Made by a program: the position numbers and the translations under genes. The notes beneath the pieces are model-generated. The model was not told the origin of the DNA, ran no database searches, and saw only the letters and a list, made by a program, of their open reading frames with translations. 23,673 nucleotides of DNA from a virus, in the IMG/VR virus record IMGVR_UViG_3300017759_000088, positions 1-23,673 of that record, one strand, 5' to 3'. Below, piece after piece: positions 1 to 8,575 of the stretch (position 1 is the stretch's first letter; each line of letters begins with the position of its first letter).

Positions 1-345
1 CCGTAAGGCTCGCTTGATCGCGTCGGTCTCTGCACCTTTAACGGCGTTTTCATGGTCGTGGCTGTTGTCGCCTCCCCAGCCTTCACGGGTGACACCACCG
101 GCACGGACGCGAACGCGGGCAATGTAAGTGGGTTGCTTTTCGTTTACACATTTCATTTCAAGGGTTTCACTGCTCCAGCCATCGAACCCAAAGATTCGGT
201 TGGCTTCTGAAATGGCGTGTTCGCCGGAGATGTAGTCAAGCGTGCGACCTCCAGCACCCTTGCGTTTTTTGACGTTGTTGAGGTCAAGCGGTGCCGCCAA
301 GGATTCTTTGGCGGCTTGATCTAGAAGAATCGTGGACATGTCCAT
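1..345 (-). CDS. Rad52-type single-strand annealing protein (C-terminus beyond window)
   Basis: The first 115 residues are present; the gene runs off the left edge. Residues 36-58 (starting LDYISGEHAI, with FGFDGWS near the end) and 101-115 (AVKGAETDAIKRALR) match the conserved core of Rad52/Rad22 annealing proteins, which pair complementary single strands during phage recombination. This part is the N-terminal ring-forming, DNA-binding domain. The ATG at 345 shares one base with the TAA of the upstream exonuclease gene (TAATG), so translation is probably coupled; a second ATG lies two codons in. The exonuclease partner next door supports the assignment. This is a confident family call from motifs; full length and any C-terminal extension cannot be seen. 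Confidence 0.9.
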   Translation of the reverse strand, partial: MDMSTILLDQAAKESLAAPLDLNNVKKRKGAGGRTLDYISGEHAISEANRIFGFDGWSSETLEMKCVNEKQPTYIARVRVRAGGVTREGWGGDNSHDHENAVKGAETDAIKRALR

Positions 346-1118
346 TATTTGAAGGCCCATGAGGGCAGTGAAAGGGTTTGCGGTTCCATCGGGGTGTGTC
401 CCGGCCAGTTGTTGAAGACTCTGCAGTTGGCGATCAGGTCCAGGGCCTTGCGGCGCAGATAACGGCCTTCTGCGATCGCGTCATCATCAAGGCGATATAT
501 GCCGATCTGATGAGGCGGCTCACGTTCAACAACTACAAAGACAAAACGCTTCATCTGGGACATCTCCAGATAGTGAGCGCATTGCAGGTGGTAAGAAAAA
601 TTGGCCACCTGTTTGGCGAAACTGGCTGGGCTTGCTCCACCAGCGGGCACCGTCTTTAAGTCAACGATGGTTTCATCTGGGGTGATCCAATCCAGCCGAG
701 CTTTCATCGGGAGGGCTGTCGAATCGTCTTCTGCGAAAAAAGACTGTTCAGCTAAACCATCGACAAAAAAGGTGTTGCATAAAAGGTTCCCATTTACGGC
801 GTGATTCATGCCCAGGGCCTTTTCGTATTGGGCCAAGGTGATGGGTTGCCGACCGTTTTTGATGGCTTGCTGGGCCTCTTCTTTGCCTGCCTTGGTGTTG
901 CGTGGGCCGCAAACTTGGTAGGTGTTTTTGAACTTTTCATGTTCAAGGATGAAGCAGTGGGCCAGGGTGCCTTCGATCATTTGAGGGCTTGGCTTGCGTT
1001 CAGCACGTCCGCCTTGATGCTTCATCCAGTAGAGAAGCTCAGGGGACTCCAAAGCCTGCTTCATGTCGCTCTGGCTGTAGCCAGGGTCGCTGAAGTAATC
1101 GACTTCTGAGACGGTCAC
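345..1118 (-). CDS. RecE-like PD-(D/E)XK exonuclease
   Basis: This 257-aa protein resembles the C-terminal nuclease domain of RecE (DUF3799 type). It should resect double-strand ends 5' to 3' to expose 3' tails for the annealing protein encoded next. Visible motifs are GTLAHCFILE (50-59, the conserved histidine motif), Asp143 in KARLDW, the Asp153-x-Lys155 core of IVDLKT, and Gln179/Tyr183 in YHLQCAHY, in the order expected for this nuclease superfamily. It starts with GTG, overlapping the previous stop by four bases (GTGA), and its stop overlaps the Rad52 start by one base. The three tightly packed genes look like one leftward operon. Family assignment is firm; activity is inferred. Confidence 0.88.
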   Translation of the reverse strand: MTVSEVDYFSDPGYSQSDMKQALESPELLYWMKHQGGRAERKPSPQMIEGTLAHCFILEHEKFKNTYQVCGPRNTKAGKEEAQQAIKNGRQPITLAQYEKALGMNHAVNGNLLCNTFFVDGLAEQSFFAEDDSTALPMKARLDWITPDETIVDLKTVPAGGASPASFAKQVANFSYHLQCAHYLEMSQMKRFVFVVVEREPPHQIGIYRLDDDAIAEGRYLRRKALDLIANCRVFNNWPGHTPMEPQTLSLPSWAFK

Positions 1119-1366
1119 TTAACGTCCTCCCGATTCCAATGAATGCCGCCGGGACCATATATGCCCTGAAGCTCAGGCCAGGTCCGCAAGATTTTGGCCA
1201 CGTTGTCCGGGTCAGCGACCAAGCCAGCGGTGGCCAGCTTTCGTTCAAAGTCGCCGCCATGCACCTGGGCGATATGGAACATTCGAGTAATTTCGCTTTG
1301 AGTCATTTGGGGCCTAGAGTCTGCATGGGCAGACTTCAGAAGCGATGCCAGGGGTGGTTGAAGCAC
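1115..1366 (-). CDS. Small phage protein of unknown function (83 aa)
   Basis: I do not recognise this 83-aa protein. I prefer the GTG start at 1366 because an AGGAGG motif (1377-1382) lies 10 bases upstream, overlapping the TAG of the preceding gene. An ATG at 1306 (MTQSEITRMF) would give 63 aa without a clear Shine-Dalgarno site, and a longer reading from 1429 would run deep into the upstream gene. The C-terminal half contains ERKLATAGLVADPDNVAKIL and a WPELQGIYGPGG segment, and looks like a small folded domain. Its stop overlaps the GTG of the exonuclease gene, so it probably belongs to the recombination operon. Confidence 0.65.
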   Translation of the reverse strand: MLQPPLASLLKSAHADSRPQMTQSEITRMFHIAQVHGGDFERKLATAGLVADPDNVAKILRTWPELQGIYGPGGIHWNREDVK

Positions 1367-1380
1367 TGGGGTTTGTCCTC

Positions 1381-1740
1381 CTATTTGCAGAGATGGTCGA
1401 TAAGTTCCGAAACGTTGCCTGCTTCGCATTGCAGGCGATGTAGAGCCGATCTGCTGTGCATAGGCATCTCATATTTCACGCCAGGTGGTGGAGTCGCCTG
1501 GTCATAACGTTCCTGAGCTGACTGGTTGTAGTGGTCAAAATTCTCAGGAAAATCACTGAATCTCCACTCAGCCACTTCATCAAGTTTGTCTGATGCAAAC
1601 GTTGCGCCTTGCTGGTAGCCGCGTCGGTAAGCCTGCTCGCAAGCTCTGGCGATGTGCTTAGCAATATCAGGACAAATTTCTTTAATCTGCTTTGCTTGCT
1701 TGTACTGCTCGTAAAAAATTTCTGGATAGGATTTAGTCAT
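1381..1740 (-). CDS. Hypothetical protein (119 aa)
   Basis: This is an unrecognised 119-aa soluble protein rich in aromatic and charged residues (YPEIFYEQYKQAKQIKEICP near the N-terminus). The predicted structure is mostly helical, with no membrane segment or obvious catalytic motif. The ATG at 1740 overlaps the TGA of the upstream small membrane-protein gene in an ATGA arrangement, and GAGGAG lies 8 bases before it, so the start is well supported. It lies between the cassette genes and the recombination genes in the leftward transcript. Function is unknown. Confidence 0.7.
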   Translation of the reverse strand: MTKSYPEIFYEQYKQAKQIKEICPDIAKHIARACEQAYRRGYQQGATFASDKLDEVAEWRFSDFPENFDHYNQSAQERYDQATPPPGVKYEMPMHSRSALHRLQCEAGNVSELIDHLCK

Positions 1741-1937
1741 CGTTTCAGCTCCTCGCAGGCGGCCTGCACGCCCAGGCGGCAGTCACGTTCTGTCATTTGG
1801 TCCAGCGTGCCGGTCAGAGAAACGAACAAGGCACCGCCAAACAGCACGAACAGAAAAGTGGTGAACGCTGGAGCAAACCACGGGGGACTGCCGGGGTCGT
1901 TGTAGAGCTTGGTGCTTTGGTAGCGGATTTGTTTCAT
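1737..1937 (-). CDS. Small single-span membrane protein (66 aa)
   Basis: This 66-aa protein has one hydrophobic segment at about residues 20-42 (FAPAFTTFLFVLFGGALFVS), preceded by a basic, Tyr-containing N-terminus and followed by a charged C-terminus with two cysteines (DCRLGVQAACEELKR). It is probably an inner-membrane protein with a short cytoplasmic tail. The stop overlaps the next gene's start (ATGA), indicating coupling. No Shine-Dalgarno site is seen. It is too short and generic to name; small phage membrane proteins at such positions can be superinfection-exclusion or host-interaction proteins, but nothing here shows that. Confidence 0.65.
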   Translation of the reverse strand: MKQIRYQSTKLYNDPGSPPWFAPAFTTFLFVLFGGALFVSLTGTLDQMTERDCRLGVQAACEELKR

Positions 1938-1952
1938 TGGTTTGGGAGAGAA

Positions 1953-1968
1953 GGCCCCCGAAGGGGCC
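1953..1968 (-). terminator. GC hairpin with UUCG loop after the 55-aa gene
   Basis: On the minus strand GGCCCC-TTCG-GGGGCC forms a perfect 6-bp stem closed by a stable UUCG tetraloop, 6 bases after the stop of the 55-aa gene. It is followed by TTCTCTCCC rather than a pure T-run, so it may be a weak terminator or an mRNA 3'-stabilising hairpin. It mirrors the hairpin after the 48-aa gene. Confidence 0.5.
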
Positions 1969-1974
1969 GGGGGA

Positions 1975-2142
1975 TCAGACGCGGGAGCGCAGTTCGGCTT
2001 GGATCATTTCGACGATGGACATCAGGCGGTCTTTCCTTGCGGAGTTGTTGGTGATAACTGCCTGGGAACTCATTTCGAGCGAGTTGTCCATCAAGACCAG
2101 GGTGGAGATGGTCTTGCAGCGTTCGGGGGTCCAGAGGTTCAT
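1975..2142 (-). CDS. Cassette gene A: 55-aa hypothetical protein
   Basis: This is a 55-aa protein beginning MNLWTPERCKTISTLVLMDN and ending IVEMIQAELRSRV, probably two or three helices. I found it by reading the minus strand directly. Support is contextual: it begins 23 bases downstream of the -10 box of promoter module A, carries the same AACCACCCC leader before its ATG (here with one extra A) as two other cassette genes, and ends just before a UUCG hairpin. Its first three codons (ATG AAC CTC) equal those of the 79-aa cassette gene. The sequence is not recognised. As a short, strongly promoted early-region gene it is a candidate host-modifying peptide, by inference only. Confidence 0.65.
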   Translation of the reverse strand: MNLWTPERCKTISTLVLMDNSLEMSSQAVITNNSARKDRLMSIVEMIQAELRSRV

Positions 2143-2164
2143 TGGGGTGGTTGGAACTGAAGTC

Positions 2165-2225
2165 AGTATGACCCCGCCTTGGTAGGTGACTAGTACCCCT
2201 TGTGCAGCCTTTTAGGTTGGCACAA
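2165..2225 (-). promoter_or_regulatory. Repeated promoter module, copy A
   Basis: Read leftward: a 26-bp dyad TTGTGCCAAC-N8-CTGCACAA (2225-2200), 3 bases, a degenerate hexamer GTACTA (2196-2191), 5 bases, CTACCA (2185-2180), 9 bases, then CATACT (2170-2165) as a -10 box. The hexamers fall where a -35 element would be. The leader GACTTCAGTTCC follows. The same geometry occurs at modules B and D and partly at C. Promoter function is inferred from the repetition and the position 5' of a small gene. Confidence 0.7.
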
Positions 2226-2244
2226 CAAAAGGGGCCGAAGCCCC
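2223..2244 (-). terminator. Intrinsic terminator of the 48-aa gene
   Basis: On the minus strand GGGGC-TTCG-GCCCC (2244-2231) is followed directly by TTTTGTTG. A 5-bp GC stem, UUCG loop and U-run make a plausible rho-independent terminator, 5 bases past the stop of the 48-aa gene and just before module A. It would insulate the two cassettes. Confidence 0.7.
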
Positions 2245-2249
2245 CCGGG

Positions 2250-2396
2250 TCAGTCGATAGACTCCAGGCGCTTGCGCTCCTGGGCCAGGTACTGGTTGAG
2301 GTCTTTGACCAGTTGCTGGTGCTGTTCTTGTACCTTGCGGTCAAGTTCCTCCTGGTGGGCCACAAGGGCTTTCAGGTAGTTAGATCCTAGATCCAT
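2250..2396 (-). CDS. Cassette gene D: 48-aa helical protein
   Basis: This 48-aa protein begins MDLGSNYLKALVAHQEELDR and ends LAQERKRLESID. Almost the whole chain is predicted to form one amphipathic, Gln/Glu/Lys-rich helix with heptad-like Leu/Val spacing, suggesting a small coiled-coil or adaptor peptide. The ATG is preceded by GCAACCACCCC, the leader shared with cassette genes A and B. Upstream lies promoter module D; downstream is an intrinsic terminator. The gene therefore looks like a self-contained transcription unit. The sequence is not recognised. Confidence 0.65.
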   Translation of the reverse strand: MDLGSNYLKALVAHQEELDRKVQEQHQQLVKDLNQYLAQERKRLESID

Positions 2397-2413
2397 GGGG
2401 TGGTTGCGTGGGC

Positions 2414-3268
2414 CTATTCATTCTGCGCCTTGTGGTCGGTGTTTGGTAGGGATTGTGTAGGTTCGTTAGTTGGCACAGGAGCAGTGCTTATCCCATGCTC
2501 CGTCAGAGCCTGTCGAAACCTGCCGTTTTGCTCCTTCATTTGCTTATGCCACTCCTTAGCGACTTTTGCTGATCGGGCTTTTTGCCTTTCCTCCCATTCT
2601 TTCATCTTTGCCTCGTGGAACCGTTTTCGTTCGGCGGCTGCCTCTTCCTCGGCAATTTTGTCTTGGATCCTGTTAATTACAAAGCAAAGCAACGCTTTGG
2701 GCTGAACGTAAATTGATTTTTGATCGGCATGTAAAACGCCACTTCTCATTGGTGGATATGACCTGAAAGCGTCTGCCCCTCGAACCATTGACTTAATTTC
2801 ACTTTCGTAGGGTCGGTCAGAACCCAAGTCGGTAAAAATTTTGTGCTCTTGGATTACTCGTCGGACATCATTGCCTGCTGTTTTTAGCGGCAAGTAACCA
2901 TCAGCCTTGAGTTTTGCAATTTTGACTTCAAGCCGTTTTTTGCGGATTTCTTTTCTAGCTTTATTTCTGCGTTTAATTTCGCCATTAGCAGCTTGTATTG
3001 CATGAGCTAGCTGCCCATCAGTTGCATTCATAAGCTTGCAACCGATCGCATATTCAATCTTTGTCCATTGCGCTTTGCTGGTCTTGTCGCCCCATTGCCC
3101 AGGCCATTTTTCTTTTTGTTTTTGTTCCTTGAGTGCCTCTAGCTCTTTGTGCCAAATCTCGTATTGATCCGGATCGTGGCCCATTTGGGTGATCCGGTCC
3201 TCCAGATACGACTGGCGGTTTTCGCGTTTGTCGTACGTGGTGTTCGCGTATTTGTTTGGTTTACTCAT
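2414..3268 (-). CDS. Charged, coiled-coil-rich protein of unknown function (284 aa)
   Basis: This 284-aa protein is very rich in Lys, Glu, Arg and Gln. Two stretches look like long helices or coiled coils: about 92-130 (NGEIKRRNKARKEIRKKRLE and following) and about 205-255 (DKIAEEEAAAERKRFHEAKM and following). Between them is a more globular part (YLPLKTAGNDVRRVIQEHKI, then SEIKSMVRGADAF). The C-terminal 25 residues are Pro/Thr/Asn-rich and overlap promoter module D. The start overlaps the stop of the alpha-CTD-like gene (ATGA), so the two are translationally coupled and may act together. I do not recognise the family; a nucleic-acid-binding or scaffold role is only a guess from charge. Confidence 0.75.
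   Translation of the reverse strand: MSKPNKYANTTYDKRENRQSYLEDRITQMGHDPDQYEIWHKELEALKEQKQKEKWPGQWGDKTSKAQWTKIEYAIGCKLMNATDGQLAHAIQAANGEIKRRNKARKEIRKKRLEVKIAKLKADGYLPLKTAGNDVRRVIQEHKIFTDLGSDRPYESEIKSMVRGADAFRSYPPMRSGVLHADQKSIYVQPKALLCFVINRIQDKIAEEEAAAERKRFHEAKMKEWEERQKARSAKVAKEWHKQMKEQNGRFRQALTEHGISTAPVPTNEPTQSLPNTDHKAQNE
2420..2478 (-). promoter_or_regulatory. Repeated promoter module, copy D (inside the 3' end of the upstream gene)
   Basis: Read leftward: a degenerate 26-bp dyad (2478-2453, sharing TGTGCCAACT and ACACAA with copies A and B), 3 bases, CTACCA (2449-2444), 5 bases (AACAC, as in copy C), CGACCA (2438-2433), 7 bases, then CAGAAT (2425-2420) as the best -10 candidate. The 3-6-5-6 spacing equals that of the other copies. 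Most of it overlaps codons for the C-terminus of the 284-aa protein. Its -10 is the weakest match of the four. Confidence 0.55.
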
Positions 3269-3618
3269 TGCAGTTCCTCCCGAAGGTTTTCGATAGCGGC
3301 CAAGATGTCGTCCGCGCTGCCCTCGCCGACGTGGCTGATCAACAGCAGGTCTTTACGAGTCAACGCCATGACAGCCCCGACGTTTTTGTAACCACGCCGC
3401 CATAGAGCGTTATGGGCACGAATTGGCAGCATTAGCCGGTCAAGCGGCATCTCATGCAAGCTTTCCTTTTTAGGAGGCGCTAGGGCTTCGCACAATTCGC
3501 GGATGTCTTCGCGAGTTAAGGACTGGCCCTCTGGGGTGTCCCAAGCCATGACCCCATTGGCCAGGTCTTCACGGATCAAGCTGGCCACGTAGGACAGCTG
3601 GGGTTTTGTTAATTCCAT
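3265..3618 (-). CDS. RNA polymerase alpha C-terminal-domain-like protein (117 aa)
   Basis: Residues about 52-114 match the helix-hairpin-helix fold of the RNA polymerase alpha CTD: MPLDRLMLPIRAHNALWRRG, then YKNVGAVMALTRKDLLLISH, then VGEGSADDILAAIENL. By my alignment the E. coli DNA-contact residues Arg265, Asn268, Gly296 and Ser299 correspond to Arg67, Asn70, Gly98 and Ser101, while Lys298 is replaced by Gly100. The N-terminal 45 residues (LTKPQLSYVASLIREDLANG and following) are not part of alpha and look like a small helical domain. The protein lacks the alpha NTD, so it cannot be a polymerase subunit; it may bind DNA at promoters or contact activators or sigma. Its stop overlaps the next gene. 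Fold call is fairly firm; the role is inferred. Confidence 0.8.
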   Translation of the reverse strand: MELTKPQLSYVASLIREDLANGVMAWDTPEGQSLTREDIRELCEALAPPKKESLHEMPLDRLMLPIRAHNALWRRGYKNVGAVMALTRKDLLLISHVGEGSADDILAAIENLREELQ

Positions 3619-3693
3619 AAAACAGTGGTGGATAAAGCCGGGGTTGGCAAGCCTGCGCCCATAAGTTGGCGACTCCTCTCTGTTATCCCCGGA

Positions 3694-3709
3694 GAGGCCC
3701 GAAAGCCTC
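3694..3709 (-). terminator. GC hairpin overlapping the stop of the 79-aa gene
   Basis: On the minus strand GAGGC-TTTCGG-GCCTC forms a 5-bp stem that includes part of the stop codon of the 79-aa gene. No U-run follows, so termination strength is doubtful, but the position matches hairpins after the other cassette genes. Confidence 0.4.
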
Positions 3710-3947
3710 AGAACTGAGCAGCGAGGCCGGTGGCCAGGTGCTTAAAGAAGTGGTGGAAATCGCCGTTGCGGAAATCCAGTTGCTGAAGGATGCCGGTAAT
3801 CTGCTGGCGCTCTTGGCCCTTGGTGCTGAGGATGCGATCGATTACAACGTCTGTGGTGATGATGTGCGAGTCGCCGGTCGTAGGGCTGGTGACTTCGTAG
3901 GTCTTGAGGGTGAAGTCTTTCTCAGCGAAGAAGGTGGAGAGGTTCAT
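3708..3947 (-). CDS. Cassette gene B: 79-aa hypothetical protein
   Basis: This is a 79-aa protein with a beta-rich N-terminal half (DFTLKTYEVTSPTTGDSHII, then TTDVVIDRIL) and a helical C-terminal half ending FFKHLATGLAAQF. No known motif is seen. The ATG at 3947 follows GTCAACCACCCC, the shared cassette leader, and lies 24 bases from the -10 box of module B. A GC hairpin overlaps its stop. The next gene leftward (alpha-CTD-like) begins 90 bases on, without a clear module of its own, so it may be read from module B if the hairpin leaks. Function unknown. Confidence 0.7.
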   Translation of the reverse strand: MNLSTFFAEKDFTLKTYEVTSPTTGDSHIITTDVVIDRILSTKGQERQQITGILQQLDFRNGDFHHFFKHLATGLAAQF

Positions 3948-3971
3948 GGGGTGGTTGACTGAACTGAGCTA

Positions 3972-4031
3972 AGTATGGGCCTTGCTGGTAGCCAAGTGGT
4001 AGGAATTGTGCAGCTTGTTGAGTTGGCACAA
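3972..4031 (-). promoter_or_regulatory. Repeated promoter module, copy B
   Basis: Read leftward: dyad TTGTGCCAAC-N8-CTGCACAA (4031-4006), 3 bases, CTACCA (4002-3997), 5 bases, CTACCA (3991-3986), 8 bases, CATACT (3977-3972). This is the most complete copy and I use it as the type sequence. The leader TAGCTCAGTTC follows. The paired hexamers centre near -29, straddling the usual -35 position on one DNA face, as expected for a dimeric or tandem activator site. Confidence 0.72.
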
Positions 4032-4043
4032 CCCCCAGGGGGT
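4031..4043 (-). terminator. Short GC inverted repeat after the 96-aa gene
   Basis: ACCCCC-T-GGGGGT is a perfect 6-bp inverted repeat, followed on the minus strand by TGTGCC and merging into the dyad of module B. It lies 7 bases after the stop of the 96-aa gene, in the position taken by the terminator before module A. Without a U-run its activity is uncertain. Confidence 0.35.
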
Positions 4044-4050
4044 GAAGGCC

Positions 4051-4341
4051 TCACCAATGACGCTTGGTGATGGTCTGGGTTTTGGCCTTGCCTTCTGCCC
4101 AGTCCCAAAAACGAACCTCACGGCCAGTCGAAAACTGCCCCCAAAATGGAAGAGCTGTCTCGCTGTCCCAAAAGTTCATGGCGCAATTCAAACTGTGCCA
4201 GACCAGCTGGTCAGGATCGACGTGGGCCACAACCTCCATGACTTGATCCATGGTCTTGAAGACCAAGGACTGGCCATCAGGAGTGCGGAGCGTAAAGCCA
4301 AGAACCTTTTGGCCTACGCGGTCGAGCTGAAGAATAAACAT
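4051..4341 (-). CDS. Cassette gene C: 96-aa hypothetical protein
   Basis: This 96-aa protein begins MFILQLDRVGQKVLGFTLRT. The ATG at 4341 is chosen over an upstream ATG at 4416 because GGGGGAG lies 5 bases before it and because the longer reading would cross promoter module C. It is beta-rich at the N-terminus and Trp-rich at the C-terminus (LVWHSLNCAMNFWDSE, then REVRFWDWAEGKAK). No family is recognised. Unlike the other three cassette genes it has a clear Shine-Dalgarno site. It is the first gene after rusA in the leftward direction. Confidence 0.7.
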   Translation of the reverse strand: MFILQLDRVGQKVLGFTLRTPDGQSLVFKTMDQVMEVVAHVDPDQLVWHSLNCAMNFWDSETALPFWGQFSTGREVRFWDWAEGKAKTQTITKRHW

Positions 4342-4365
4342 CGGGTCTCCCCCGGAACTGAAGTC

Positions 4366-4396
4366 ACTATGGGCCCGATTGGTAGGTGTTTGGTAG
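4366..4396 (-). promoter_or_regulatory. Repeated promoter module, copy C
   Basis: Read leftward: CTACCA (4396-4391), 5 bases, CTACCA (4385-4380), 8 bases, CATAGT (4371-4366), then the leader GACTTCAGTTCC as in copy A. The full 26-bp dyad is missing; only CTGTGA at the far end (near 4425) recalls its outer half, inside the reconstructed rusA reading frame. The first hexamer begins 3 bases after the reconstructed rusA stop. Confidence 0.65.
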
Positions 4397-4399
4397 GTA

Positions 4400-4818
4400 C
4401 TAGGCCAGAGTTTCAATCGTCACAGTTGCACCTGGACGTTCACCCGGCAGGCAGTATCTCTGACAAGCACTAAGCAACACCACGTAGCAATCGTCGGTGA
4501 ATGCCGAACCTGTGAGCCCATCAAGCAAACTCCGGCAGCACTTGTCGATGTCGTTTTTTTGGTCGTGTAATGCGTGCGAGCTGATGGACGCAAATTGCCT
4601 TTGGCCCCAAAATCACCCTTAGGGCGCAAAAACCGAAACTCAACGGCAACGCTGCAGGCTTGCTCAATCAACTCTCCGCAGGCAGCCAATGCCTCAACTC
4701 GCACGGCGTCTCTCCAAGGCCCGACACGTTCTGAGGCTTCTCGCATCCCGTAACGAGTGCGAATTTTTGATCCTTGCGGCGCGGCTTCGATTCCTGAAAT
4801 TTCGATGTCGTAACGCAT
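4400..4818 (-). CDS. rusA: RusA-type Holliday-junction resolvase, -1 frameshift at an A7 run
   Basis: RusA resolves Holliday junctions. The first 88 residues (ISGIEAAPQGSKI near the start, FRFLRPKGDFGAKGNLRPSA before the break) match the N-terminal half. At the A7 run (4560-4554) the family match leaves the original frame, which reads on to a TGA at 4420-4422 as unrelated sequence (132 aa). One step back gives NDIDKCCRSLLDGLTGSAFT, then DDCYVVLLSACQRYC and a final VTIETLA, ending at TAG 4400-4402: a normal 139-aa RusA. The acidic residues for catalysis (Asp90, Asp92, Asp109, Asp110) exist only in the shifted frame. Explanations are programmed frameshifting or polymerase slippage on A7, a real mutation, or a sequencing error in the homopolymer. 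The start codon abuts a terminator U-run and has no Shine-Dalgarno site. Confidence 0.85.
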
Positions 4819-4846
4819 AAAAAAAGCGGGGTGCTCGAATCCCCGC
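4819..4846 (-). terminator. Strong leftward terminator or attenuator touching the rusA start
   Basis: On the minus strand GCGGGG-ATTCGAGCA-CCCCGC (4846-4826) forms a 6-bp GC stem with a 9-base loop, followed by seven Ts (4825-4819) and then directly by the rusA ATG. It has all parts of a rho-independent terminator. As placed it would stop leftward RNA before rusA unless bypassed, so it may be an attenuator. Confidence 0.65.
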
Positions 4847-4875
4847 CCGGTGCTCTTCCCCTCTAACGCTAATTC

Positions 4876-5685
4876 ATGTCATTCATCCCGCAAGGCGTTC
4901 CCTTCACGTCACTTCCAACAGCAATTCGCGGAACGCTTCAGCCGAATCAGCTGGCGATTCTCTGGGTTATCCAGACCTACGCCGGAGCGAATGCCGATTG
5001 CTGGCCGTCAATCAAAACCATCGCTGATGGCGCTTGTGTTTCTGTCCGTACTGCTCGGGCTGTCGCTGGGCAGTTGGAGTCCATGGGACTTCTCCAGCGC
5101 GAATCACGCCGAAACGATCGCGGCGACTGCTGCACAAACCTCTACCGGGTCACTGTCAACCACCTGGCCAACGTTGCCCCACCGTCCTTAGACCCCCCGG
5201 CAGCATCTGCCGCACCCCTAGGCAGGAAATGCCGTACCCCCCGGCAAATGGTGCCGGACCCCCCGGCAGGAGCTGCCGCCAAACTAAATACAAAAGAACT
5301 AAATACAAAAGAACTACAAACAGCCAGTAAAGCTGCAAAAGGCCAAAAGCCAGGACGAAATGCCTACAGCGACGAGTTCCAGGCCTTTTGGCAGCAGTAT
5401 CAAAAAATTGGCAACAGAGCGACTGGTCAATCCAAGCCCAAGGCATGGGTTGAATACAAAAAGCTCACCAGAGGCGTTCAGGAGCGCCTACAAGGCACTT
5501 TGGCCGCTTCATTGAAGGATCAGGCCAGAGGGGAGCAAAAGGGCCGGTTCCTGACCTGCTACCCCGATTGTTTTCGTTGGCTGCGTGATGGCCGTTATGA
5601 ATCCTTCCTGGAAACTGCCACAGCAGCCACAGCCAAACCCAGCCACCTGACCCATCTTGGTGCTCAGGAAGGCGATCCCTTCTAA
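4876..5685 (+). CDS. Replication initiator, lambda-O-like layout (winged-helix protein)
   Basis: This 269-aa protein probably binds the origin iterons within its own gene and recruits the replicative helicase or its loader. Residues about 20-92 form a winged-helix/HTH domain (LQPNQLAILWVIQTYAGANA, then WPSIKTIADGACVSVRTARA, then LESMGLLQRESRRN). Residues about 95-156 are a Pro/Ala-rich linker encoded by the iterons and AT-rich tract. Residues about 160-250 (YSDEFQAFWQQYQKIGNRAT, then SKPKAWVEYKKLT, then RFLTCYPDCFRWLRDGRYES) match the C-terminal region common in phage replication proteins of this type. This order (DNA-binding domain, ori-encoded linker, C-terminal partner domain) is that of lambda O. 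It is the first rightward gene, divergent from rusA. No Shine-Dalgarno site is seen. Confidence 0.8.
   Translation: MSFIPQGVPFTSLPTAIRGTLQPNQLAILWVIQTYAGANADCWPSIKTIADGACVSVRTARAVAGQLESMGLLQRESRRNDRGDCCTNLYRVTVNHLANVAPPSLDPPAASAAPLGRKCRTPRQMVPDPPAGAAAKLNTKELNTKELQTASKAAKGQKPGRNAYSDEFQAFWQQYQKIGNRATGQSKPKAWVEYKKLTRGVQERLQGTLAASLKDQARGEQKGRFLTCYPDCFRWLRDGRYESFLETATAATAKPSHLTHLGAQEGDPF
5192..5279 (+). repeat. Four tandem 22-bp iterons with internal dyads
   Basis: Four contiguous units start at 5192, 5214, 5236 and 5258, exactly 22 bp apart. The consensus is ACCCCCCGGCA-N5-TGCCG plus one variable base; unit 2 differs by having CCTAGG in place of CCCCGG. Each contains the dyad GGCA-N5-TGCC. As 22 is not a multiple of 3, the repeats encode different residues in successive units, so they are conserved as DNA rather than protein. 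Confidence 0.88.
5282..5311 (+). repeat. Tandem 15-bp A-rich repeat next to the iterons
   Basis: AACTAAATACAAAAG occurs twice without a gap (5282-5296 and 5297-5311), followed by a partial third copy (AACTA). It encodes a doubled LNTKE in the initiator linker. Its position directly after the iterons suggests part of a DNA-unwinding element. Confidence 0.8.
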
Positions 5686-7217: not shown

Positions 7218-8575
7218 GTTTGGTTGACGACATCTGTGAGGCCGTGCCGCTTACGCAGTTCGCTACGCCACCCTCAGCTCAAGACACCAACGAAATTCTT
7301 CGTCGCATAAAAGCCGACCTGCACCCTGGTCAGTTGGCCTTTGTTGAAGACACCGAAACTCAGATCTTGGGTCTGACTGCCGGATATGGCGCAGGTAAAA
7401 CCGTGGCGCTAGCTGCGAAAAGTATTTCGCTGGCGATCCTCAATCAGGGTTTCACGGGCATCGTCATGGAGCCCACCTACCCGATGATTCGTGACATCTG
7501 GAAAGCCACCTTTGACAAATACCTGGAGCAATACGGCATCCCTTTTACATACCGAACAAGCCCTTTGCCTGAATATGAATTACACCTAAGCAAACCGACC
7601 CGGATTCTGTGCCGGTCAATTAAAAATGGGGCCTTCACTGCGGTGGGCGTCAACGCCGCGTGGGCTTGCTTTGATGAGATCGACATCTTGCGCCTGGTCG
7701 ATGCACAGAGCGCGTTTGAAAAGATTTTGGGCCGTTTACGCGAAGGCAATGTGCGGCAATTTGCTGTTGCCAGCACACCTGAAGGCTTTCGCTGGTTATT
7801 TCAGCAGTTCGGCAAACCAGAGATGCAGGAGCGCAGCGACCGCAGGTTGATTAAAATGAAGACGGCAGACAATCCACATCTGCCCCCAGACTTCATCGAA
7901 CGGCTGCAGCAGAACTACGACTCAGCAAGCCTTGCCGCTTACCTGAATGGTGAGTTCGTCCTTTTAAACAGTACGCAGGTTTACGACCGTTTTGACCGAG
8001 CGAAGCACGTTATTGAGACGGCCCCGGTCAATTTGGACAATGAGCCACGCCACTGGGGTTGTGATTTCAATATTGACAACTGCAACGCTGTTTGTGGGGT
8101 GAGGTTGGGCCATCAATTTCTAATCATTGACGAGTTAAAAGCTCATGACACAGATGCCATGGCTGCAGAAATCAAGCGACGATCTGCCCACGTTTCTGCC
8201 CCTATATATGTCTACCCAGACGCATCTGGAGGAAACCGTCATTCGTCAGCCGCGAAGACAGATTTGGAGCTGCTGCGGATGGCCGGACTCTCAGTCGTTG
8301 CCGGTCGTTCCAACCCTCTCATCCGTGATCGGGTGGCTGCTGTTCAAGCTCTGCTGGAAAACGGCAAAGGCGAGATTCGGGTGCAAATTCTTGCCAGGTG
8401 CGAACGAATGATCGAGTGCTTAGAGCTGCAGAGCTATTCAGAGCGCAATCCTTCGGAACCTGACAAAGAGGCCGGATTCGACCATCTCACTGACAGCTTG
8501 GGCTACGTGGTGTGGGCTCTATACAACCCCTTGCACGTAAGGGCTGGCCGAGGGACGGGCATCAGAGTATATTGA
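7214..8575 (+). CDS. terL: Terminase large subunit (packaging ATPase and nuclease)
   Basis: This 453-aa motor pumps DNA into the prohead and cuts the concatemer. The ATPase domain has Walker A TAGYGAGKT (55-63), Walker B ACFDE (Asp154, Glu155) and the coupling motif VASTP (185-189). The RNase-H-like nuclease domain shows Asp284 in WGCDFNI, Asp306/Glu307 in LIIDE, Asp336 in YVYPDASG and Asp423/Asp427 in FDHLTDSLGY. All motifs are intact and the length is normal. It overlaps terS by four bases. Downstream is a terminator and a 180-bp gap, so packaging genes may form a separate unit from the head genes. Confidence 0.96.
   Translation: MSLVDDICEAVPLTQFATPPSAQDTNEILRRIKADLHPGQLAFVEDTETQILGLTAGYGAGKTVALAAKSISLAILNQGFTGIVMEPTYPMIRDIWKATFDKYLEQYGIPFTYRTSPLPEYELHLSKPTRILCRSIKNGAFTAVGVNAAWACFDEIDILRLVDAQSAFEKILGRLREGNVRQFAVASTPEGFRWLFQQFGKPEMQERSDRRLIKMKTADNPHLPPDFIERLQQNYDSASLAAYLNGEFVLLNSTQVYDRFDRAKHVIETAPVNLDNEPRHWGCDFNIDNCNAVCGVRLGHQFLIIDELKAHDTDAMAAEIKRRSAHVSAPIYVYPDASGGNRHSSAAKTDLELLRMAGLSVVAGRSNPLIRDRVAAVQALLENGKGEIRVQILARCERMIECLELQSYSERNPSEPDKEAGFDHLTDSLGYVVWALYNPLHVRAGRGTGIRVY

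Follow-up and report, generated by a model that had tools for sequence, protein, structure and literature searches.

The stretch of DNA analysed here (the window) is a 23.7 kb virus record from IMG/VR, IMGVR_UViG_3300017759_000088, and belongs to a marine cyanobacterial virus. Its large terminase is 60–61% identical to the terminases of Cyanophage KBS-S-2A and Synechococcus phage S-H1, which share the host Synechococcus WH7803, also the listed host of phage S-PM2. The minus strand carries an early-type gene cluster at positions 345–4818, coding for an exonuclease, a RusA-like protein and small proteins of unknown function, while the plus-strand genes begin with a replication initiator, followed by the terminase, portal and head genes. 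Within the minus-strand cluster lie four copies (A to D) of a putative promoter module, each placed ahead of a small gene, which a preliminary description made from the sequence alone had singled out and which are the subject of this analysis.

Modules A to D and their genes

The modules lie on the minus strand at 2225–2165 (A), 4031–3972 (B), 4396–4366 (C) and 2478–2420 (D), and consist of a palindrome (dyad), two hexamers forming a direct repeat, and a −10 box. Inspection of the sequence bore out these positions and the spacing first proposed, namely 3 bp, 5 bp and 7 to 9 bp between successive elements. The dyad was also recognised correctly at that stage, but its framing as 26 bp is better replaced by one of 24 bp, from which the gaps to the −10 box given below are counted.

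2201–2224, minus strand: module A palindrome, candidate activator site; gap of 30 bp to the −10 box
2180–2196, minus strand: module A direct repeat GTACTA-N5-CTACCA, with an 11-bp period
2165–2170, minus strand: module A −10 box, CATACT
2143–2164, minus strand: module A leader, GACTTCAGTTCCAACCACCCCA, without a Shine-Dalgarno sequence
1975–2142, minus strand: gene A, 55 amino acids, without a family match
4007–4030, minus strand: module B palindrome; gap 29; weight-matrix score 15.4, with no match in the reversed or shuffled window
3986–4002, minus strand: module B direct repeat CTACCA-N5-CTACCA
3972–3977, minus strand: module B −10 box, CATACT
3948–3971, minus strand: module B leader, TAGCTCAGTTCAGTCAACCACCCC
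3708–3947, minus strand: gene B, 79 amino acids, phrog_6004, common among cyanophages
4401–4424, minus strand: module C palindrome, right half decayed; gap 29; overlap with the end of the relatives' RusA frame
4380–4396, minus strand: module C direct repeat CTACCA-N5-CTACCA
4366–4371, minus strand: module C −10 box, CATAGT
4051–4341, minus strand: gene C, 96 amino acids; unrelated small genes take its place in other phages
2454–2477, minus strand: module D palindrome, degenerate; gap 28; inside the coding sequence of the 284-amino acid gene
2433–2449, minus strand: module D direct repeat CTACCA-N5-CGACCA
2420–2425, minus strand: module D −10-like sequence, CAGAAT (weak)
2397–2419, minus strand: module D leader, ending in CAACCACCCC
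2250–2396, minus strand: gene D, 48 amino acids
2414–3268, minus strand: fast-evolving gene of 284 amino acids, with module D inside its 3′ end
3265–3618, minus strand: gene for a 117-amino acid protein resembling the C-terminal domain of the RNA polymerase alpha subunit (alpha-CTD) at residues 50–110
2229–2246, minus strand: terminator-like hairpin with a T-rich tail, between gene D and module A

The −10 hexamers of modules A, B and C are close to the sigma-70-type TATAAT, with only a weak version present in D. As noted from the outset, no −35 consensus accompanies them; no sigma-70 promoter with a −35 element (TTGACA at 16–18 bp) was found in window positions 1900–4950. The window contains two exact copies of the 18-base dyad pattern plus one with two mismatches, and with up to three mismatches allowed there are 3 occurrences against 0.07 expected by chance, a count reached by none of 100 shuffled sequences. 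The repeat CTACCA-N5-CTACCA, with at most two mismatches, is found five times (one of them overlapping) against 0.97 expected, five being reached in one of 100 shuffles. Modules A to D are thus confirmed as a real observation exceeding chance.

In modules A, B and D the leader ends in CAACCACCCC directly before the ATG, and CTCAGTTCAGTCAACCACCCC immediately 5′ of the ATG is conserved between modules and between genes and lacks a Shine-Dalgarno sequence. This conserved leader was missed by the preliminary description, as were the switching of hexamer words between phages, the cyanophage-wide occurrence of the dyad element and the position of module D, all of which falls within the 3′ end of the 284-amino acid gene. 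Its remark that the dyad of module C is nearly lost is correct for the window, where that dyad has decayed, but not for relatives carrying the CTGCA word, in which it is intact (CTGTGACAATCCAAACAGTTGCACAA).

The 284-amino acid gene shows only 38% identity between the diverged pairs compared. Where residues are identical, the same codon is used in 46% of cases in the body of the gene versus 87% in the last 24 columns, which lie over module D; as the sequence pairs are non-independent, this difference is an effect size and carries no probability. As a separate observation, the gene is about 39% identical in close relatives against more than 90% for its neighbours, and thus evolves much faster. 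The dyad might be thought to act as an RNA hairpin which terminates transcription of the upstream gene, given the terminator-like hairpin immediately 5′ of module A. However, that hairpin is separate from the dyad, which itself has no T-run and gave no Rfam match, while D lies inside a gene and the dyad keeps a fixed distance to the −10 box, making such a role very improbable.

Copies in related phages and the variable direct repeat

The exact dyad pattern was found in 16 IMG/VR stretches, all 16 of which carry the module. Its 14 matches in bacterial genomes are scattered over unrelated taxa, none of them cyanobacterial, and are near the number expected by chance. The preliminary description had looked to a matrix-type scan for further copies in relatives, and these were indeed obtained with a profile built from relatives, which detected 60 distinct modules on 19 contigs of related cyanosiphoviruses (E-values down to 1e-25). 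They precede 17 unrelated gene families, mostly of less than 110 amino acids, the downstream genes being exchanged between phages. In the near-complete 39-kb relative G013, all four strong modules lie within one 2.4-kb stretch of the recombination/replication (early) cluster and none is ahead of structural genes.

The sequence upstream of gene B differs by clade, being the module in the clade of the window and other palindromes elsewhere. In L039, L041 and similar contigs it contains a near-consensus promoter, TTGACG-N17-CATACT, so the module occupies the place of a plain sigma-70 promoter. Two other arrangements were observed: in another clade (L063–L067, L069) the palindrome GGGGTATACCCC directly abuts the −10 box upstream of gene B, and in L056, L058 and L060, upstream of gene B and its neighbours, GnGCA units with an 11-bp period extend up to the −10 box (GAGCA-N6-GCGCA-N6-GCGCA-TATAAT), with a dyad half-site the same as that of the module.

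The hexamers themselves vary by phage. The window and its nearest relatives have CTACCA/CTACCA as the word, which is CTGCA/CAGCA-like in G002, G003, G012 and G015, and CACAA/CACCA-like in G007 and, mostly, G018, with the type of a phage recurring at different, unrelated genes. With one representative taken per diverged lineage, identity of the two hexamers across different modules is 0.81 for modules of one genome versus 0.64 for those of different genomes, a difference reached in none of 2000 permutations. Such covariation is absent for the dyad arms (+0.001 and −0.025) and the leader (−0.005). Words can also differ between phages with exonucleases 90% identical, as with G011 and G012. Since the words switch in concert while dyad and leader do not, the simplest reading would be that a trans-acting factor of each phage changes its specificity, and the reader of the direct-repeat word is probably a factor specific to each lineage and likely encoded by the phage.

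The concerted change is hard to attribute to gene conversion, which should move the dyad and leader too. This bears on a different view of the modules as mainly recombination boundaries, supplying homology for gene shuffling and conserved through exchange. One module type does stand ahead of 17 unrelated gene families and position C holds different genes in different phages, as that view would have it. Nevertheless, the dyad and leader should then travel with the hexamers and show covariation, and neither the gap to the −10 box maintained in unrelated phages nor the frozen synonymous sites at D, inside a gene, agrees with it; we consider it improbable.

As to the protein that would read the repeat, a search for DNA-binding regulators among the early proteins of both the window and the 39-kb relative brought up only the exonuclease, the RusA-like, Rad52-like and replication initiator proteins and the alpha-CTD-like protein. 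The last, encoded between modules D and B, could conceivably read the direct repeat or the dyad and tether RNA polymerase. It is confined to module-bearing phages of the window's clade, its resemblance to alpha-CTD is found with both Pfam and PDB chains, equivalents of Escherichia coli R265, N268, G296 and S299 are kept (as judged by eye), and a distinct signature in the domain is common to the three phages that have the CTGCA word. Yet G008 keeps all modules with a protein lacking the alpha-CTD domain, S-H1 and KBS-S-2A have the dyad and no alpha-CTD-like protein, and the identity of the protein does not clearly track the words; its structure model was poor (pLDDT 52) and was not used. The protein, although an evident candidate, is consequently an unlikely reader. 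In G008 the domain has been deleted in frame, leaving a short remnant, and a profile search for more relatives of the domain gave no new clade.

A phage sigma factor was also considered and rejected as the reader, being present in KBS-S-2A and in one other gene B carrier, G023, and in none of the module-bearing contigs of the window's clade. The RpoD-like sigma factors of these two relatives are encoded at 7779–8708 of L074 (KBS-S-2A) and on contig G023 (L079).

The palindrome and −10 box in other cyanophages

A general form of the palindrome, TGTGCCAGT-N6-ACTGGCACA, was derived from the relatives together with S-H1 and gave at least 120 matches when scanned in IMG/VR. The element so defined is a 24-bp palindrome, TGTGmCAsT-N6-AsTGkCACA, placed 28–31 bp upstream of a −10 box of consensus TATAAT and usually lacking a −35. 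In the IMG/VR contigs with the matches listed, 42, 165, 128 and 25 sites have gaps of 28, 29, 30 and 31 bp respectively, with about 7 expected per position. A −35 sequence matching at five or more of six positions accompanies 43 of 277 unique promoters of this wider class (5 with shuffled spacers). The matrix for this class found no site in reversed or shuffled genomes. Phages Syn9 and S-PM2, whose loci took no part in building the matrix, give 12 −10 matches at a gap of 29 bp versus 0–3 at most other gaps.

The palindrome element is present in the cultured phages Syn9, S-PM2, S-CRM01, S-SKS1, S-SRM01, B23, KBS-S-2A and S-H1 and in many IMG/VR contigs, the copies in S-CRM01, S-SKS1, S-SRM01 and B23 having been found with a strict pattern which is without a match in P-SSP7, Syn5, P-SS2, S-CBS4, Ma-LMM01, S-TIM5 and P-HS2. 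Photosystem II reaction-centre genes are clear in 3 of the 33 larger palindrome contigs checked, identifying those three as cyanophages. In S-PM2, several of the palindromes stand ahead of clusters of very small hypothetical genes. It was also observed that in L112–L231 short recurring sequences (TACGGAGTA, TACATGTA and ACTTCAGT) lie just 3′ of the −10 box around the likely start site; these vary by phage group and resemble small dyads.

With palindromes 30, 29, 29 and 28 bp from the −10 box, modules A to D have the geometry of this wider class, and they are placed in it because of the score of module B, the matching spacing and the bridging copies in S-H1 and KBS-S-2A. The gap, fixed to within about 3 bp, and the missing −35 in most copies fit an activator touching RNA polymerase better than a repressor. 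The palindrome could instead be the operator of a phage or host repressor, with promoters that are on by default and later shut off, for operators are typically perfect palindromes and there are many copies per genome. Against this, it lies at about −42 to −66, beyond the usual repressing zone, its gap hardly varies, and low basal activity would be expected where the −35 is missing. An operator is therefore possible, but we regard it as doubtful.

Elsewhere in the cluster, the window's RusA-like frame aligns to most relatives over residues 1–89 only, and a run of seven T at 4554–4560 is close to the point of an apparent shift in frame, which may reflect a sequencing error or a real frameshift. 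A GC-rich hairpin with an A/T run (4826–4850) lies between the divergent RusA-like and replication-initiator genes; in its orientation it would end minus-strand transcripts just before RusA.

Proposed mechanism and precedents

Judging from the sequence patterns, we put at roughly 0.6 the probability that each module is a two-site promoter cassette which lacks a −35, has a conserved leader and serves the host's RNA polymerase of sigma-70 type. The polymerase would use the −10 box without a −35, assisted by an activator common to many Synechococcus phages and bound at the upstream 24-bp palindrome, the centre of which is near −54. This activator would most simply be a host protein, as the phages having the palindrome in common are unrelated and overlap little in their early genes. 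A second factor, most likely phage-encoded and with a sequence preference that differs by phage lineage, would bind the 11-bp direct repeat, which extends from about −37 to −21 and so takes the place of the −35. The transcript would start in the conserved AGTTCAG stretch, possess a short leader that lacks a Shine-Dalgarno sequence, and read mainly one small gene, and since many small genes of unrelated families have a cassette upstream, newly acquired genes would fall under the same shared control. The sites, their spacing and conservation, the joint changes of word and the turnover of downstream genes are seen in the sequences themselves; promoter activity, activation, early timing and the identity of both binding proteins are what we infer here. 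Dependence on an activator, suspected in the preliminary description, is likely given the conserved modules without a −35, an interpretation well supported by sequence comparison, and its suggestion of a separate site for a second protein at the dyad likewise agrees with two distinct candidate protein sites.

Several results weigh against this cassette model. The −10 box shows a small within-genome covariation (+0.037; 26 of 2000 permutations), as does the N5 between the hexamers (+0.102); the related phages are non-independent samples, and no early gene clearly follows the hexamer words among those compared. S-H1 and KBS-S-2A keep the dyad geometry without the strict 11-bp repeat. With the wide matrix, only module B scores significantly (15.4), A reaching 7.0 and C and D being weak, and for A, C and D agreement with the wide consensus is limited to 13 of 18 positions, in each case non-significant alone.

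In PhoB/OmpR-type promoters, which are bound by an OmpR-family winged-helix regulator, tandem 11-bp direct repeats replace the −35 and end about 8–10 bp before the −10 box. The direct repeat of the modules has the same place and period; its words are different and vary by phage, and no response regulator was found among the scanned early phage proteins. The lambda CII site, TTGC-N6-TTGC, is a direct repeat of 10-bp period straddling the −35 region, and the likeness to it first proposed is loose and finds no support: the modules have an 11-bp period, other words in place of TTGC-N6-TTGC and a second, palindromic site upstream, and the scanned early proteins gave no CII-like match.

The closest precedent in kind, and a close one, is provided by the SAS/ESAS elements of cluster K mycobacteriophages, which recur before many genes of the non-structural genome part and whose function is not settled (PMC3203893, PMC12699233). 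Both systems have a conserved sequence at the start codon with imperfect inverted repeats just upstream, ahead of many different non-structural genes, and in both the repeat word changes, by subcluster there and by phage here. However, the sequences are unrelated. SAS contains a Shine-Dalgarno core and the leader here has none; GGGATAGGAGCCC, which marks SAS/ESAS near the start codon, is not found, the leader being CAACCACCCC-ATG. Only the modules have a −10 box at a fixed gap and an additional 11-bp direct repeat, and it is the inverted repeat that varies in ESAS, in contrast to the modules, where the direct repeat varies and the dyad stays constant.

NtcA-type promoters predicted in T4-like cyanophages resemble the present class in having a palindromic activator site in many copies in the phage genomes and a presumed host activator (PMC3037559); no mention of the present palindrome was found there. 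Their box is GTA-N8-TAC, unlike TGTGmCAsT-N6-AsTGkCACA, and GTA-N8-TAC is absent from the palindrome consensus. Intergenic repeats of halovirus HF2 are reported to have been cloned before a reporter and tested as promoters (PMC8707807); HF2 is an archaeal virus and the sequences are unrelated. The earlier remark that this pattern is not known from any described phage promoter needs qualifying. No description of the palindrome itself was found in the openly licensed literature of PubMed Central (PMC), but the geometry of dyad and −10 box occurs in sequenced cultured cyanophages, and SAS/ESAS are close in kind.

These results suggest that the palindrome class is a common way to switch on small-gene clusters of otherwise unrelated cyanobacterial viruses. 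More tentatively, and at somewhat less than even odds in our estimation, the unrelated Synechococcus phages of the T4-like Kyanoviridae and the small cyanosiphoviruses may share one undescribed, activator-dependent class of palindrome and −10 box for small, probably host-takeover, gene clusters, to which the window's clade would have added, in place of the −35, a second phage-encoded activator of rapidly switching specificity. T4-like cyanophages are without MotA and AsiA, and a review describes the control of their early and middle transcription as unresolved (PMC2984593); through the palindrome with its fixed gap this control becomes testable in the cultured phages Syn9, S-PM2, S-CRM01 and S-H1. 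The concerted change of words offers a natural series in which to follow the joint change of a regulator and its binding sites, and in uncultured cyanophage genomes the palindrome would mark promoters and hence genes that are likely to be co-regulated.

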